Positions 12,191-59,864 of a stretch of DNA of 64,000 bases are shown piece by piece. Origin of the DNA: Desulfuribacillus stibiiarsenatis. Lineage in GTDB: Bacteria > Bacillota > Bacilli > Desulfuribacillales > Desulfuribacillaceae. Each line of letters begins with the position of its first letter. The stretch's first letter is position 1. Below the pieces are notes generated by a model that saw only the letters and a list, made by a program, of their open reading frames with translations, did not search any database and was not told where the DNA came from. A program made the position numbers and the translations under genes. The stretch is from the NCBI RefSeq assembly GCF_001742305.1, contig NZ_MJAT01000001.1, positions 124,001-188,000 of the forward strand, given 5' to 3'.

Positions 12191-13498
12191 ATGTTTCCGT
12201 TTGCAGATATTGGTTTGGCTATTTTGCACAACATGAAATTCTTGCTATTGAATCCATTCATTTATGTGGTAATTTTACTAATTACCTTGCAATATCGAAG
12301 GATGATTGAAAAAGAACGGAGTATGTACTCCGTTCGTATCAATTCAGTAGCAGACCAGACAATTCAATCGATTGGCTTTGGTTTTTTAGGTGGGTTGTTT
12401 GCAACGGCCTTACTACTAGTTGTCGGGGTCGTTTTAAATCCCTATGACATGGTTTACGTCTGGGTTGTCGCTGTGTTTGTTGCGCTGATTAACATACGTT
12501 ATTTATGTTTTTCATACGCAACAGGAATCTTAGGCATTCTGGCATTCGTGACCATGTTACTACCGAATGGCGAAACACTGCCATTGATTGGCGGTTTATG
12601 GACGGGTGTATCGCAGTTGAATGTTCCTATGCTAATCGCTCTCGTTGCGATATTACATCTTACGGAAGCTATGCTGATTTGGATTCATGGGGATAAAAAG
12701 GCAAGCCCAGTATTTTTAAGTGGGAGTAGAGGCAAGCTAGTCGGTGGATTTACGATGCAAAAGTTTTGGCTGGTCCCATTATTTATCATTGTTGCGATTG
12801 ACCCTGCAAGTTTACAAATGTCACCTAGTACTTCTCCAGATGGAGGGGGTACTATTCTTTTTCCAGATTGGTGGCCGTTACTGCCCCTTTCAACACTGCT
12901 TGGCAGTGGCGTGATTCTAGGCATGCTGCCTGTGCCAGCGGTGCTAGGCTATGGTGATATTGCAGTGTCACGCACACCACGACAAAAAGCAAAGCAAACG
13001 GCTAAATGGTTGGCTTTATATAGCGTAGTTTTACTTATGTTAGGACTTGTAAGCCAATACTCACCTTGGTTACTGCTATTGGCAGCATTGTTTTCCGCTG
13101 TAGCCCATGAGTCGATAATTGTTTTTACTCAGCGCAAGGAATTCTTAGACACACCTATGTATAGTAAGCCATTAAAGGGAGTTCGCATCCTACAAGTACT
13201 ACCGAATAGTACTGCACAAAAACTTGGACTTACATCAGGTGAAGTAATTCTTAAGGTGAACGGGTTTCCAATCTATCATAAATCTGAACTTCACTATGCA
13301 TTATCGTTACAGCCTGTGTATGTGAAACTTGAGATTGAAGATTTAAATGGTGAAATTAAATTTGCCCAAACCGCTTTGTATCAAGGAGAACACCATTCTT
13401 TAGGAATTATCTTAGTACCGGACGATGACGCAACCCATTATGTAAAAATAAATATCGATAATCCTTTAAAAATGTTATGGAAAAAATTCAGAAGATAA
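12191..13498 (+). CDS. minJ: MinJ-like multi-pass membrane protein with C-terminal PDZ domain
   Basis: This 435-residue protein has about seven or eight hydrophobic segments and a C-terminal PDZ domain (about 330-420: GVRILQVLPNSTAQKLGLTSGEVILKVNG, written in two parts, residues 335-350 and 351-365 roughly). In B. subtilis, MinJ (YvjD) has the same design and links DivIVA to MinD for division-site placement; the location between ctpB and uvrB is also the same. No minCD or divIVA is in the window. The symbol rests on architecture and synteny, so function is inferred. Confidence 0.8.
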   Translation: MFPFADIGLAILHNMKFLLLNPFIYVVILLITLQYRRMIEKERSMYSVRINSVADQTIQSIGFGFLGGLFATALLLVVGVVLNPYDMVYVWVVAVFVALINIRYLCFSYATGILGILAFVTMLLPNGETLPLIGGLWTGVSQLNVPMLIALVAILHLTEAMLIWIHGDKKASPVFLSGSRGKLVGGFTMQKFWLVPLFIIVAIDPASLQMSPSTSPDGGGTILFPDWWPLLPLSTLLGSGVILGMLPVPAVLGYGDIAVSRTPRQKAKQTAKWLALYSVVLLMLGLVSQYSPWLLLLAALFSAVAHESIIVFTQRKEFLDTPMYSKPLKGVRILQVLPNSTAQKLGLTSGEVILKVNGFPIYHKSELHYALSLQPVYVKLEIEDLNGEIKFAQTALYQGEHHSLGIILVPDDDATHYVKINIDNPLKMLWKKFRR

Positions 13499-13540
13499 TG
13501 ATAAAATAATTACAGAGAGATTTTTTGGGAGGAAGACTAG

Positions 13541-14455
13541 ATGCTAGAATCACATGAAATAAATACAATTCAAGAAGCGAGAAATCAAGGGCTAAAAACT
13601 TTTTTAATTCGTGTGAAGCTTCTTAAGGATACTCAGCTAAAAGGTGTACGTGCCTACATGGTATTTACCAAATTAGAAGAGTATGGTGAAATTTTAAAAA
13701 GCATACCAGCATCTGAATTACTGGAAAAGGGTGAATTCGAGCATTCTTTCGAGCTTGTATTTATTACAAAGGAACAAGAAGAGGGAATCATCGAAGATAT
13801 TCAAAACATTTCTGAAGTAGAAGATGTGACCATAGAACCAATTGGAGATTTCGCATCAACAAATTCTCCAAGAACTACGATGACTTCTTCAGACACGCAA
13901 ACAGTGGTTCTAGCAACGCCTAATAATATAAAAGAAGTAAATGCACCAGAAACAAATACAGTACAAAAAGAAACAGCAAAGAAAGAATCCCCGAAGAAAG
14001 AAGAACCAGTAGAAACATCGGAAACAGAAAAGAAATACATTGTATTTCAGGTAGGATCTGAAGAACTCGCTTTGCCAATCGATTATGTAATGTCGATTGA
14101 GCGCAGTATGAAAATTACTCGTGTGCCGAATGTGCATGCATTTATATTAGGGGTCATCAACTTACGTGGAATTGTCATTCCAGTCATTGACTTAAAGCAC
14201 AAGTTCACGTATACCTATTCCGAGATGACAGATGCTTCAAGGGTCATCATCTGCCGTTTTGAAAACATTGAAGTCGGGTTTGTGGTCGATTCTGCGAAGG
14301 ATGTATTAACTGTTAAGAACAAATTTATTGAAAATGCCCCTGATATTGAAAAGTCGGCAGCAACTGAATTTATTAAATCCTTAATTCACTTAGACAAGAG
14401 GATTATCATATTACTAGATGTAATGAAGTTGTTTAAAGGTAGCGATTTGAATTAA
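13541..14455 (+). CDS. CheA P2-like domain fused to a CheW domain
   Basis: The protein has 304 residues in three parts. Residues ~17-103 (FLIRVKLLKDTQLKGVRAYM, GEILKSIP, FELVFITKEQ) closely resemble the P2 domain of CheA, the docking site for CheY and CheB. Residues ~104-165 are a Thr/Lys/Glu-rich linker. Residues ~166-300 are a CheW/SH3-like coupling domain (FQVGSEELALPIDYVMSIER, NVHAFILGVINLRGIVIPVI). The phosphotransfer (P1), dimerisation and kinase domains of CheA are absent. It has a good SD (GGGAGGAAG) and no sign of truncation. It could bring CheY or CheB to receptor arrays. It is not CheV, which carries a receiver domain. Confidence 0.8.
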   Translation: MLESHEINTIQEARNQGLKTFLIRVKLLKDTQLKGVRAYMVFTKLEEYGEILKSIPASELLEKGEFEHSFELVFITKEQEEGIIEDIQNISEVEDVTIEPIGDFASTNSPRTTMTSSDTQTVVLATPNNIKEVNAPETNTVQKETAKKESPKKEEPVETSETEKKYIVFQVGSEELALPIDYVMSIERSMKITRVPNVHAFILGVINLRGIVIPVIDLKHKFTYTYSEMTDASRVIICRFENIEVGFVVDSAKDVLTVKNKFIENAPDIEKSAATEFIKSLIHLDKRIIILLDVMKLFKGSDLN

Positions 14456-47576: not shown

Positions 47577-47642
47577 AATAGTTAGTTGAGAGTTTAATAA
47601 AGAAAACTGATATAAAGCAAATAAATGGCGGAGGGTAATCGA

Positions 47643-49583
47643 ATGGCATGTAATAAGTTGTCAATTAAAGATATAGATTTACAAGGAAAACTTGTGTTTT
47701 GTCGCGTAGATTTCAATGTTCCAATCAATGCTGAAGGAAAAATTACAGACGATACGAGGATCGTGAAAGCGCTTCCTACGATTCAATATATGATTGCCAA
47801 AGGGGCTAAGGTGGTTTTAGCAAGCCACCTTGGTCGTCCTAAAGGACAAAAAAACCCTGAGTATAGTTTAAAACCAGTAGCCAAGCGTTTAATGAAATTA
47901 TTACATACCGATGTGAAGATGGCGGAGGATTGTATTGGTCCAGAAGTCGAAGCAATGAAACAAATGATGAAGCCAGGAGATGTACTTCTCTTGGAGAATG
48001 TTCGTTTTGAAGCGGAAGAAGAAAAGAACGGCGATGCCCTAGCCCAGGAATTTGCCAAAAATATAGATGTATTCGTTAATGACGCTTTTGGTACGGCCCA
48101 CCGCGCCCATGCTTCCACAGCAGGGATCGCGAAATTCGTGCCAGTTTCCGTAGCAGGTTTCTTATTAATTACAGAAGTAACGATGTTAGGCGAAGCCCTT
48201 GCTCAACCGAAACGTCCTTTCACAGCGATCATTGGAGGGGCCAAGATAAGCGATAAAATCCTTGTCATCGATAACCTTTTAGACCGTGTAGATAAGCTAA
48301 TGATTGGTGGCGGAATGGCCAACACATTTTTGAAGGCACTAGGCTACGAATTAGGCAAATCATTAGTAGAAGATGAAAGAATTTCAATCGCCCAGGATAT
48401 GATTGCTAAGGCGAAAAGCAAGAAAGTGGAGCTTCTGTTACCAACCGACGTAACAATTGCAAAAGAGTTCTCGGCTGACACGGAATACCGTAATGCGAAG
48501 ATTGAGGAAATCCCAGCGGACTGGATGGCACTAGATATAGGGAGAGAGACCATAGAGTTGTACACGAAGGCAATTCAAGAATCAGCCACAATTATCTGGA
48601 ACGGTCCTATGGGAGTTTTTGAATTAGAACCATTTGCGATTGGAACAAGTAGTGTAGCGAAAGCTTTAGCTGACCATGATGCGTTTACGATTGTCGGTGG
48701 TGGTGACTCCGTTGCGGCTGTAGAACATGCGGGATTAGCAGATAAGATGGACCACATTTCCACAGGTGGTGGGGCTTCGCTCAACATGCTTGAGGGTAAA
48801 AGGCTGCCAGGGGTTGAAATATTAAATGACCGTCTAACCCTAAGAAAGCCAATCATTGCAGCCAACTGGAAGATGTTCAAGACAATCGCAGAAACAGAAG
48901 TCTATATTGACAAATTGATGGCAAAAGAGTTGCCGAAACAGGTTGATATCGTATTGTGTCCCCCATTTACAGGTCTTGAGAGTGCAGCGATGGCTGTGAC
49001 AGGAACAGAAATTAAAATCGGTGCACAAAACATGCATTTCGAGGCAAGTGGTGCTTATACAGGTGAGATTAGTCCAGTTATGCTTGGGGACTTAAATGTT
49101 CAGTATGTCATTCTCGGTCATTCCGAACGTAGAAAATTCTTCCATGAGACCAATGAAATCATAAATAAGAAAGTGCATACCGCATTTAAATATGATTTAA
49201 CACCAATTTTATGTGTGGGTGAAACGATTGAAGAGAAAGAAGCCGGGAAAACGCTAGAAGTCTTAAAGCAGCAAATCGACCAAGGGATAGCATGGTTAAC
49301 GGCAAACCAAGTGGCGAAAATGGTTATTGCCTATGAGCCAGTATGGGCGATTGGAACAGGTAAGTCGCCAACACCTGCGGATGCAAACGACTCGGTAAAA
49401 GCGATTCGTAAATATATACAAGAAATCTATGATATGGAAACAGCACAACAAGTGCGAATTCAATACGGTGGCAGTGTGAAGCCTGAGAATATTAAGGATT
49501 TCTTGACACAGTCAGACATTGATGGAGCACTTGTTGGTGGAGCGAGCTTGGCGGCAGACTCTTTTTATAGCATGCTTGTCTAA
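47643..49583 (+). CDS. pgk-tpi: Phosphoglycerate kinase-triosephosphate isomerase fusion
   Basis: One open frame of 646 residues. Residues 1-~397 are PGK: FCRVDFNVPINAEGKITDDT, SHLGRPKG, and the nucleotide-site VGGGDSVAAVE, ending in LPGVEILNDR like a normal PGK end. Residues ~400-646 are TIM: RKPIIAANWKMFK (catalytic Lys ~410), LGHSERRKFF (His ~492), AYEPVWAIGTG (Glu ~565) and YGGSVKPEN. All catalytic residues are present in both halves. No in-frame ATG, GTG or TTG lies at the junction to start a separate TIM. I use ATG 47643 behind GCGGAGGG. A PGK-TIM fusion is known in Thermotoga maritima. Confidence 0.95.
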   Translation: MACNKLSIKDIDLQGKLVFCRVDFNVPINAEGKITDDTRIVKALPTIQYMIAKGAKVVLASHLGRPKGQKNPEYSLKPVAKRLMKLLHTDVKMAEDCIGPEVEAMKQMMKPGDVLLLENVRFEAEEEKNGDALAQEFAKNIDVFVNDAFGTAHRAHASTAGIAKFVPVSVAGFLLITEVTMLGEALAQPKRPFTAIIGGAKISDKILVIDNLLDRVDKLMIGGGMANTFLKALGYELGKSLVEDERISIAQDMIAKAKSKKVELLLPTDVTIAKEFSADTEYRNAKIEEIPADWMALDIGRETIELYTKAIQESATIIWNGPMGVFELEPFAIGTSSVAKALADHDAFTIVGGGDSVAAVEHAGLADKMDHISTGGGASLNMLEGKRLPGVEILNDRLTLRKPIIAANWKMFKTIAETEVYIDKLMAKELPKQVDIVLCPPFTGLESAAMAVTGTEIKIGAQNMHFEASGAYTGEISPVMLGDLNVQYVILGHSERRKFFHETNEIINKKVHTAFKYDLTPILCVGETIEEKEAGKTLEVLKQQIDQGIAWLTANQVAKMVIAYEPVWAIGTGKSPTPADANDSVKAIRKYIQEIYDMETAQQVRIQYGGSVKPENIKDFLTQSDIDGALVGGASLAADSFYSMLV

Positions 49584-57598: not shown

Positions 57599-57712
57599 TG
57601 TTAGCAACAAAAAATTCAACTAAAACAAATAAACAAGTTAAAAACATAAAATAACAGCCAGAACTACTCCATAAGAGTAAAAGTTGAAAAAGTAAATGGG
57701 AGAAGGATGCAA

Positions 57713-58138
57713 ATGGCTAAAATATTACAAGTAGCCGATATGCATAAATGTATCGGCTGCTATTCGTGTATGCTTGCATGTGCAAGAGTTGTGAAGAAGA
57801 GCTTATCCCCTTCGCGGGCAGCGCTACAAGTCCGCACCGCGGGAGGATTTCAAAGCAGATTTATTGCTGAGATTTGTCGTGGATGTATTGATGCACCTTG
57901 TGCTGCTGCCTGCAACTGCGGAGCTTTGACGCCGCGTGAAGGTGGTGGGGTACACTTTCGACCGACTAAGTGTATCGGTTGTCAAGATTGCGTGAAAGCC
58001 TGTATTGTCGACGTCATTCAATTTGATGATTGTAAGAAGAAACCATTGATATGTATTCAGTGCGGCACCTGCGTACGTTTCTGCCCTCATAATGTTCTAG
58101 AAATGGAGGAGAGAAAATATGACGCGTCAGGGAATTAG
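57713..58138 (+). CDS. Polyferredoxin with four 4Fe-4S motifs
   Basis: About 141 residues. Four cysteine sets are visible: CIGCYSCMLAC, CRGCIDAPCAAAC, CIGCQDCVKAC and CIQCGTCVRFC, each continued by the usual partner cysteine. It resembles HycB-type electron carriers. It overlaps the oxidoreductase gene by 20 bp, so it is very likely its electron acceptor. Start ATG 57713 is better spaced to GGGAGAAGG than ATG 57707. Confidence 0.9.
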   Translation: MAKILQVADMHKCIGCYSCMLACARVVKKSLSPSRAALQVRTAGGFQSRFIAEICRGCIDAPCAAACNCGALTPREGGGVHFRPTKCIGCQDCVKACIVDVIQFDDCKKKPLICIQCGTCVRFCPHNVLEMEERKYDASGN

Positions 58139-59864
58139 AGTACTGGAAATTAACCTAACAGAAGCAAATATACAAATCCATCTACGCAAAGATTTACTTG
58201 CTTATCTTGGTGGCACAGGAGTAGCGGCAAAATTGTTTGAGGAATATGGCAGATTCGACCTTGACCCATTGGCAGAAGAACAGCCTGTCATATTTGCCAA
58301 TGGACCGTTTGCGACAATTTATCCAGTGGCGACAAAAGTCATAGCTGTATTTCGTTCCCCTTTAACAGGAGAGTATGGAGAAAGTCACGCTGGTTTACGT
58401 CTTGCCCTTGCTATGCGCGGTGCTGGATACGATGCGATTGTAATCCATGGGAAATCCCCAAAGCCGACATTCTTAGTGGTAAGCAATGATGGAGTGAAAT
58501 TTAAAAACGCGTCAGCAATCTGGGGTATGGGCGCCGGAGAAGTAGGGAATTTACTAAGGAAGCTAGCTCCAGGTGCAGGTCATCGAAGTGCTATTCGCAT
58601 AGGTCCTGCAGGCGAACGCATGGTTTCCTTTGCCAATGTGAATGTGGATACCTATCGCCATTTTGGTCGATTAGGCATTGGTGCAGTATTTGGTGCGAAG
58701 AATCTTAAAGCTATAGTTGTGCACGGGAACCAAGATCATGAAGTTGATTCGATGCAAGAATATAAGAAAGTATATGAAGAACTTTATGATCAAGTCGTAG
58801 ACACAGATATTATGGATAAATACCACGGACTCGGAACAGCTATCAATGTTATTCCGCTTAATGAACTGGGTGGTTTACCAACGAATAACTTGCAGTCTGG
58901 GCGTTTTGAGCATGCAGAAGAAATTAGTGGTGAAGCTTTTGCTGAGAAGTCTTTACTCCGTCAAGTTGCATGCTCCGGTTGCCCGATTGGATGTATTCAT
59001 ATTGGACTGCATCGTCAACAATTTGGTGAGGCTTATGAATACGAATCGAAAAGCATTTCCTACGACCATGAGCTAATCTTTGCCCTTGGCTCATTTCTAG
59101 GAATGTCGAGTCAGGAAAAGGTTTACCAACTTATCGATCGTGTCGAAGAGCTTGGCCTTGATGCAATTTCTGCAGGTGTAGTGCTTGGTTGGGTGATTGA
59201 AGCGTTTGAGAAGAATATGATTGACCAAGAAACATTAGGAACGACCGTTGCTTTTGACAATGTGGAAGGATGCATACACGTACTAGAAGGGATAGTTAAG
59301 CAGCCCAATGATTTCTACCGAGCTTTAGCAAATGGGACAGACGCAGTAGCGGAACAATATGGTGGTCTTGAATTTGCTATGACCATGGGCAAGACAGAAA
59401 TGGCTGGATACCATACAGGTCATGCACATGTCATCGGACAATCGATAGGCGCAAGGCATTCCCACTTAGATAATGCGGGTTATGCAGTCGATCAGAAGTT
59501 TCGTAAGGATCAGGACCAACCAGAAGTATATAAAAAGATGGTGCAACAGTTAGTGGAAGAAGAGCAATGGCGAAATGTGGTTACTTCCCTGGGGATATGC
59601 TTGTTCGCAAGAAATATCTATACACCAGACGTGATTATAAGAGCCCTTGAGGCGATTGGCATTACCACGACTCAAAACCAATTGAATGAGCTCGGTAAAA
59701 AGATTTATCAATTGAAACATAAGTTACGAACGAAATTAGGTTTCAAAATTGACGACTTAAGATTTCCGAAGAGATTTTTTGACACACCGTCTCTAACTGG
59801 TACATTGACCCCAGAGACAATCAACAACATGCTTGACGAATATAAGAAATACGTAAATAAATAA
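58119..59864 (+). CDS. aor: Aldehyde ferredoxin oxidoreductase (tungsten type)
   Basis: A 581-residue protein of the AOR family. The 4Fe-4S cysteines fit C285-x2-C288-x3-C292 (CSGCPIGC) and C494 (LGICLFAR). Pterin-binding stretches include SPLTGEYGESHAGLRLALAM and AIRIGPAGERMVSFANVNVD. AOR oxidises aldehydes to acids with ferredoxin, or reduces acids. The overlapping polyferredoxin gene supports this. Substrate unknown. No tungstate transporter or cofactor genes are in the window. Confidence 0.9.
   Translation: MTRQGIRVLEINLTEANIQIHLRKDLLAYLGGTGVAAKLFEEYGRFDLDPLAEEQPVIFANGPFATIYPVATKVIAVFRSPLTGEYGESHAGLRLALAMRGAGYDAIVIHGKSPKPTFLVVSNDGVKFKNASAIWGMGAGEVGNLLRKLAPGAGHRSAIRIGPAGERMVSFANVNVDTYRHFGRLGIGAVFGAKNLKAIVVHGNQDHEVDSMQEYKKVYEELYDQVVDTDIMDKYHGLGTAINVIPLNELGGLPTNNLQSGRFEHAEEISGEAFAEKSLLRQVACSGCPIGCIHIGLHRQQFGEAYEYESKSISYDHELIFALGSFLGMSSQEKVYQLIDRVEELGLDAISAGVVLGWVIEAFEKNMIDQETLGTTVAFDNVEGCIHVLEGIVKQPNDFYRALANGTDAVAEQYGGLEFAMTMGKTEMAGYHTGHAHVIGQSIGARHSHLDNAGYAVDQKFRKDQDQPEVYKKMVQQLVEEEQWRNVVTSLGICLFARNIYTPDVIIRALEAIGITTTQNQLNELGKKIYQLKHKLRTKLGFKIDDLRFPKRFFDTPSLTGTLTPETINNMLDEYKKYVNK

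Follow-up and report, generated by a model that had tools for sequence, protein, structure and literature searches.

What could a P2 domain do when it is carried by a CheW protein and not by the CheA kinase? It is established that P2 docks CheY next to the P1 domain of CheA, and that CheW, in the rings it makes with P5, links receptors to CheA (PMC4742279, PMC10782961). In the window analysed here, a stretch of 64,000 nucleotides from Desulfuribacillus stibiiarsenatis, a motile bacterium of the class Bacilli, one gene encodes both modules in a single protein (Table 1). The preliminary description of this locus had reported a P2-like N-terminal fold joined directly to a C-terminal CheW domain through a flexible linker, without a kinase, in a gene with clear ends and a good ribosome-binding site. 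This observation is confirmed: the gene is an intact frame of 304 codons preceded by a well-placed GGGAGG, and its parts are as described.

Table 1. Coordinates in the window of the P2-CheW fusion gene, its parts and its upstream neighbour
Feature	Position	Strand	Remarks
P2-CheW fusion gene	13541..14455	+	304 aa plus stop; intact ORF, ATG start, TAA stop
Shine-Dalgarno-like GGGAGG	13527..13532	+	8 nt 5' of the fusion ATG; read from sequence
P2 response-regulator-binding domain	13601..13840	+	residues 21-100; Pfam PF07194, 1u0s_A sequence and fold match
Flexible linker	13841..14029	+	residues 101-163, rich in T/S/E/K/P; pLDDT <50 at 105-160
CheW domain	14036..14437	+	residues 166-299; Pfam PF01584; groups with stand-alone CheW
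Hydrophobic protein with C-terminal PDZ domain	12191..13498	+	PDZ_6 1.5e-05, below curated cut-off

The P2 domain that forms the N-terminal half is intact and of the type found in T. maritima and Bacillus. PF07194 matches it with an E-value of 2e-25 (89.1 bits, the cut-off being 23) over 80 of 81 profile positions, and phmmer searches of the PDB retrieve the P2 domain of T. maritima CheA (1u0s_A), which was crystallised with CheY in that entry, at 5.6e-11 with the whole fusion and at 2e-10 with the P2 domain alone. An AlphaFold2 model built on an input alignment of 19 sequences recovers the same fold, its P2 part (pLDDT 80-94) superposing on 1u0s_A with a Z of 14.2 and an rmsd of 1.0 Å over 85 of 86 residues. 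Both the profile search and the structure prediction, which the preliminary description had proposed as checks, identify the N-terminal region as P2. Twenty-one of the 24 columns with at least 75% conservation among CheA P2s are present in it.

About 60 linker residues, predicted to be disordered, lead to a complete CheW domain, matched by PF01584 at 4.2e-35 over profile positions 2-135 of 138. CheW structures in the PDB are matched by the fusion at 1.6e-22 (phmmer), and the CheW part of the model, whose confidence is lower than that of P2, has the CheW fold, with Z of 17-19 on several CheW structures. R209, the equivalent of E. coli CheW Arg62, is kept, and in an ungapped alignment Ser185 stands at the position equivalent to E. 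coli Glu38; the CheWs of T. maritima, which belong to class F1 too, likewise do without the Glu at this position (PMC3828127). Across the 304 residues, no Pfam domain other than P2 and CheW exceeds its cut-off, and HATPase, dimerisation, Hpt and receiver domains have no match.

The protein probably provides the receptor array with a site for CheY docking that does not depend on the kinase. From its domains we infer both binding and function, with about an even chance of being right, as those of an auxiliary CheW-type coupling protein that has its own CheY/CheB docking module and feeds CheY to neighbouring CheA. Its CheW half would occupy CheW positions in the receptor-CheA-CheW lattice, and the tethered P2 would bind unphosphorylated CheY, perhaps also CheB. 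CheY held in this way would be kept within reach of the phosphorylated P1 of a neighbouring CheA, and P2 would release CheY-P; how many docking sites the array contains would thereby not depend on how many kinases it has.

The main rival to such delivery is a sink or buffer, in which array-bound P2 would compete with the P2 of CheA and withhold CheY or CheB from phosphotransfer, resulting in damped output or slower adaptation. The same anatomy would fit, and a role as phosphate sink has been suggested for CheV, a related fusion (PMC4742279). P2 holds no phosphate, however, so that it could hide a regulator but not drain phosphate, and since the array tether would moreover put CheY beside the P1 of the kinase, delivery is favoured over sequestration, which we regard as unlikely.

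The source genome encodes partners for such a coupling protein: a CheA that contains P2 and is accompanied by a CheW, several CheYs as well as CheBs, and about 25 chemoreceptors. CheW domains occur at nine places in all, including the fusion, a CheV-like protein and three CheAs, and P2 matches are found in two of these three CheAs and in the fusion. The CheY-like proteins number at least three (65-86% identity to the query used) and, together with the CheV-like protein (L047) and three chemosensory clusters, they give some room for a receptor- or regulator-specific adaptor, in which the CheW half would serve a subset of the receptors and P2 would select one CheY paralogue or the receiver of CheB or CheV. 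The P2 tree, which is based on no more than 91 columns and contains one long branch, points the same way, as the P2 halves of the window's fusion and of its orthologue in a second genus pair there (96/81) on a branch of their own, apart from all sampled CheA P2s. Nevertheless, the window's P2 is about as similar to other CheA P2s as to that of the flagellar-type CheA in its own genome (43% identity), which indicates no special partner, and no receptor gene adjoins the fusion gene; partner specificity of this kind is a rather doubtful explanation.

The orthologue (P0002, 311 aa, in G001) belongs to another genus of the same family and is 52-54% identical to the window's protein. The same domain order, which the preliminary description had suggested looking for in relatives, is conserved in it, with both domains above the Pfam cut-offs (P2 at 3.5e-23, CheW at 5.7e-35). 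Its surroundings are conserved as well, the series ftsE, ftsX, M23-type peptidase, ctpB-like peptidase, hydrophobic PDZ protein, fusion, uvrB and uvrA being common to both genera (L015/L049). That a second genus has kept it speaks for a real gene. The P2 domains of the two genera are 53% identical, the linkers 15% and the CheW domains 73%. Dividing the changes at codon positions 1 and 2 by those at position 3, a crude statistic with third positions near saturation, gives 0.45, 1.12 and 0.30, respectively, compared with 0.46 for the P2 of the genome's flagellar-type CheA. By this measure, P2 is under about the same constraint in the fusion as inside CheA, with a linker apparently free to drift.

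These values bear on whether the protein is mainly an extra CheW, with P2 as a passenger of little function. Such a reading would fit the lower identity of P2 relative to CheW and the loss of several P2 consensus residues in the second genus, but it is improbable given that the crude constraint on P2 equals that on its CheA-embedded counterpart, unlike that on the free linker, and that P2 evolves fast in CheA too. The P2 of the second genus keeps 14 of the 24 consensus columns and forms a long branch in the tree, and as a consequence of this drift CheY binding may be altered there. For a coupler with its own docking site, this drift is counted as adverse, as are the Gly found in both fusions at a position where nearly all CheA P2s have Glu, the location of the gene outside every che cluster, and the fact that some systems can do without P2 in phosphotransfer (PMC10782961); the strength of both domains by profile and fold and the similar constraint on P2 in the fusion and in CheA are counted in its support.

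That the gene is what remains of a cheA after breakage or an internal deletion, a doubt which the preliminary description had raised and which the order of P2 then a CheW-like domain (CheA minus P3-P4) would suit, is extremely improbable and was rejected, since a cheA that had lost P3-P4 should have left a CheW half resembling P5, whereas this one matches stand-alone flagellar-type CheWs at 1e-29 to 1e-36 and CheA P5s no better than about 1e-4, falls among the former and away from the P5 rows in a 63-row tree (with only five P5 rows includable and weak deep branches), and belongs to an intact frame at a locus conserved in another genus. The source genome has three full-length CheAs elsewhere. 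The best reading of these comparisons is that a P2 of the CheA type has been joined to a CheW of the stand-alone type.

How widespread is this join? A search of 399 genomes of the class found it in two, both of the same family, at a threshold of 1e-36, the E-value reached only by a two-domain match. With a two-sequence profile, 398 genomes of the phylum gave CheW-only matches besides the window's own gene and no second fusion; this search is a weaker test than that of the class, and its sample did not contain the genome of the second genus. Scanning of genome contigs yielded no relative with the fusion protein as query, and only ordinary Paenibacillus CheWs beside P2-bearing CheAs with the two-sequence alignment; no place in the plasmid and phage collections covered 80% of the fusion query. 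In P2 profile searches of 300 class and 398 phylum genomes, the best matches listed, about 150 for each search, fall in frames of at least 480 aa that are nearly all CheA-sized. The exceptions among them are the fusion gene of the window and its orthologue, some frames that contig ends interrupt, and one of 317 aa in a single genome (G283). As these searches give best matches only, divergent fusions could be missed. As the samples cover a selection of the genomes of this phylum and the listings cover the best matches, the safe claim is that the P2-CheW fusion is rare and, judging from sequence searches, probably confined to one family among close kin. The open-access papers searched, among them one that surveys CheA architectures (PMC10782961) and one on CheV (PMC4742279), gave no account of a P2-CheW protein; as far as these papers go, an undescribed family is plausible.

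Two other sets of frames were considered in these searches. The 317-aa frame was rejected as a fusion, being the front half of a frame-broken cheA (L108 1600-3596 (-)) that is split between P2 and the kinase by an assembly frameshift or in a broken gene. Likewise, no P2-CheW protein was seen among the long CheW frames of two genomes (G670 and G413); that of G413, from the same phylum, encodes a 518-aa protein with three tandem CheW domains beside cheB (L131 1035-2591 (-)), and a similar frame is found in G529.

Several known systems resemble the fusion in part. Like it, CheV uses a CheW domain to bring a second signalling module into the array, and has been proposed to act as an extra adaptor in addition to a phosphate sink (PMC4742279), but in CheV the CheW domain comes first and is followed by a receiver, whereas the fusion has the docking site of a receiver N-terminal to CheW. 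CheA (P1-P2-P3-P4-P5) has the same type of P2, also placed before a CheW-like domain; in contrast, the fusion has no P1, dimerisation or kinase domains and its CheW half is not P5-like. In Rhodobacter/Cereibacter sphaeroides, CheA3 and CheA4 likewise split CheA functions among array proteins sharing CheW-like domains (PMC10782961), although CheA3 retains an active Hpt and acts as a half kinase, unlike the fusion, which has no catalytic or phosphotransfer domain. Finally, ParP of Vibrio is not a kinase and enters the array through its C-terminus (PMC5706961), as the fusion would, but it links arrays to the pole anchor ParC and is not known to have a P2 domain. The fusion would extend this short list (CheV, ParP, split CheAs) of cases in which arrays gain functions via module swaps on a CheW scaffold.

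Tentatively, and with somewhat less than an even chance, the protein may represent a lineage-specific coupler that separates CheY/CheB docking from the kinase, with docking, coupling and catalysis tuned separately. If true, a CheW-type scaffold, and not the copy number of CheA, would determine how many docking sites the array has. The role of P2 is hard to separate from that of its kinase, and a natural P2-CheW protein without a kinase allows array-localised CheY docking to be tested alone.

Immediately upstream, the gene of the hydrophobic PDZ protein ends 42 nt before the fusion (7 nt in the second genus), and the two are possibly co-transcribed; given this adjacency, the PDZ protein might be a functional partner of the fusion. 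In layout and gene neighbourhood it presumably resembles MinJ of Bacillus. No exact sigma-D-like motif occurs in the window, and no convincing promoter lies directly 5' of the fusion gene. Elsewhere in both genomes, the flagellar operon (L048, G000 C12:277000-285000; L132, G001 C1:546500-558500) carries flhF-flhG-cheB-cheW-cheC without cheA, the flagellar-type cheA being located at another place with a second cheW (L044, L089).

Two further observations concern other genes of the window. Positions 47625-49583 (+) encode a 652-aa fusion of phosphoglycerate kinase and triosephosphate isomerase (PGK 3.5e-164, TIM 4e-95); such fusions are known from Thermotoga and, to our knowledge, would not be expected in the class Bacilli. 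At 57707-59864 (+), the gene of a small ferredoxin-like iron-sulphur protein overlaps a gene of the aldehyde ferredoxin oxidoreductase type.
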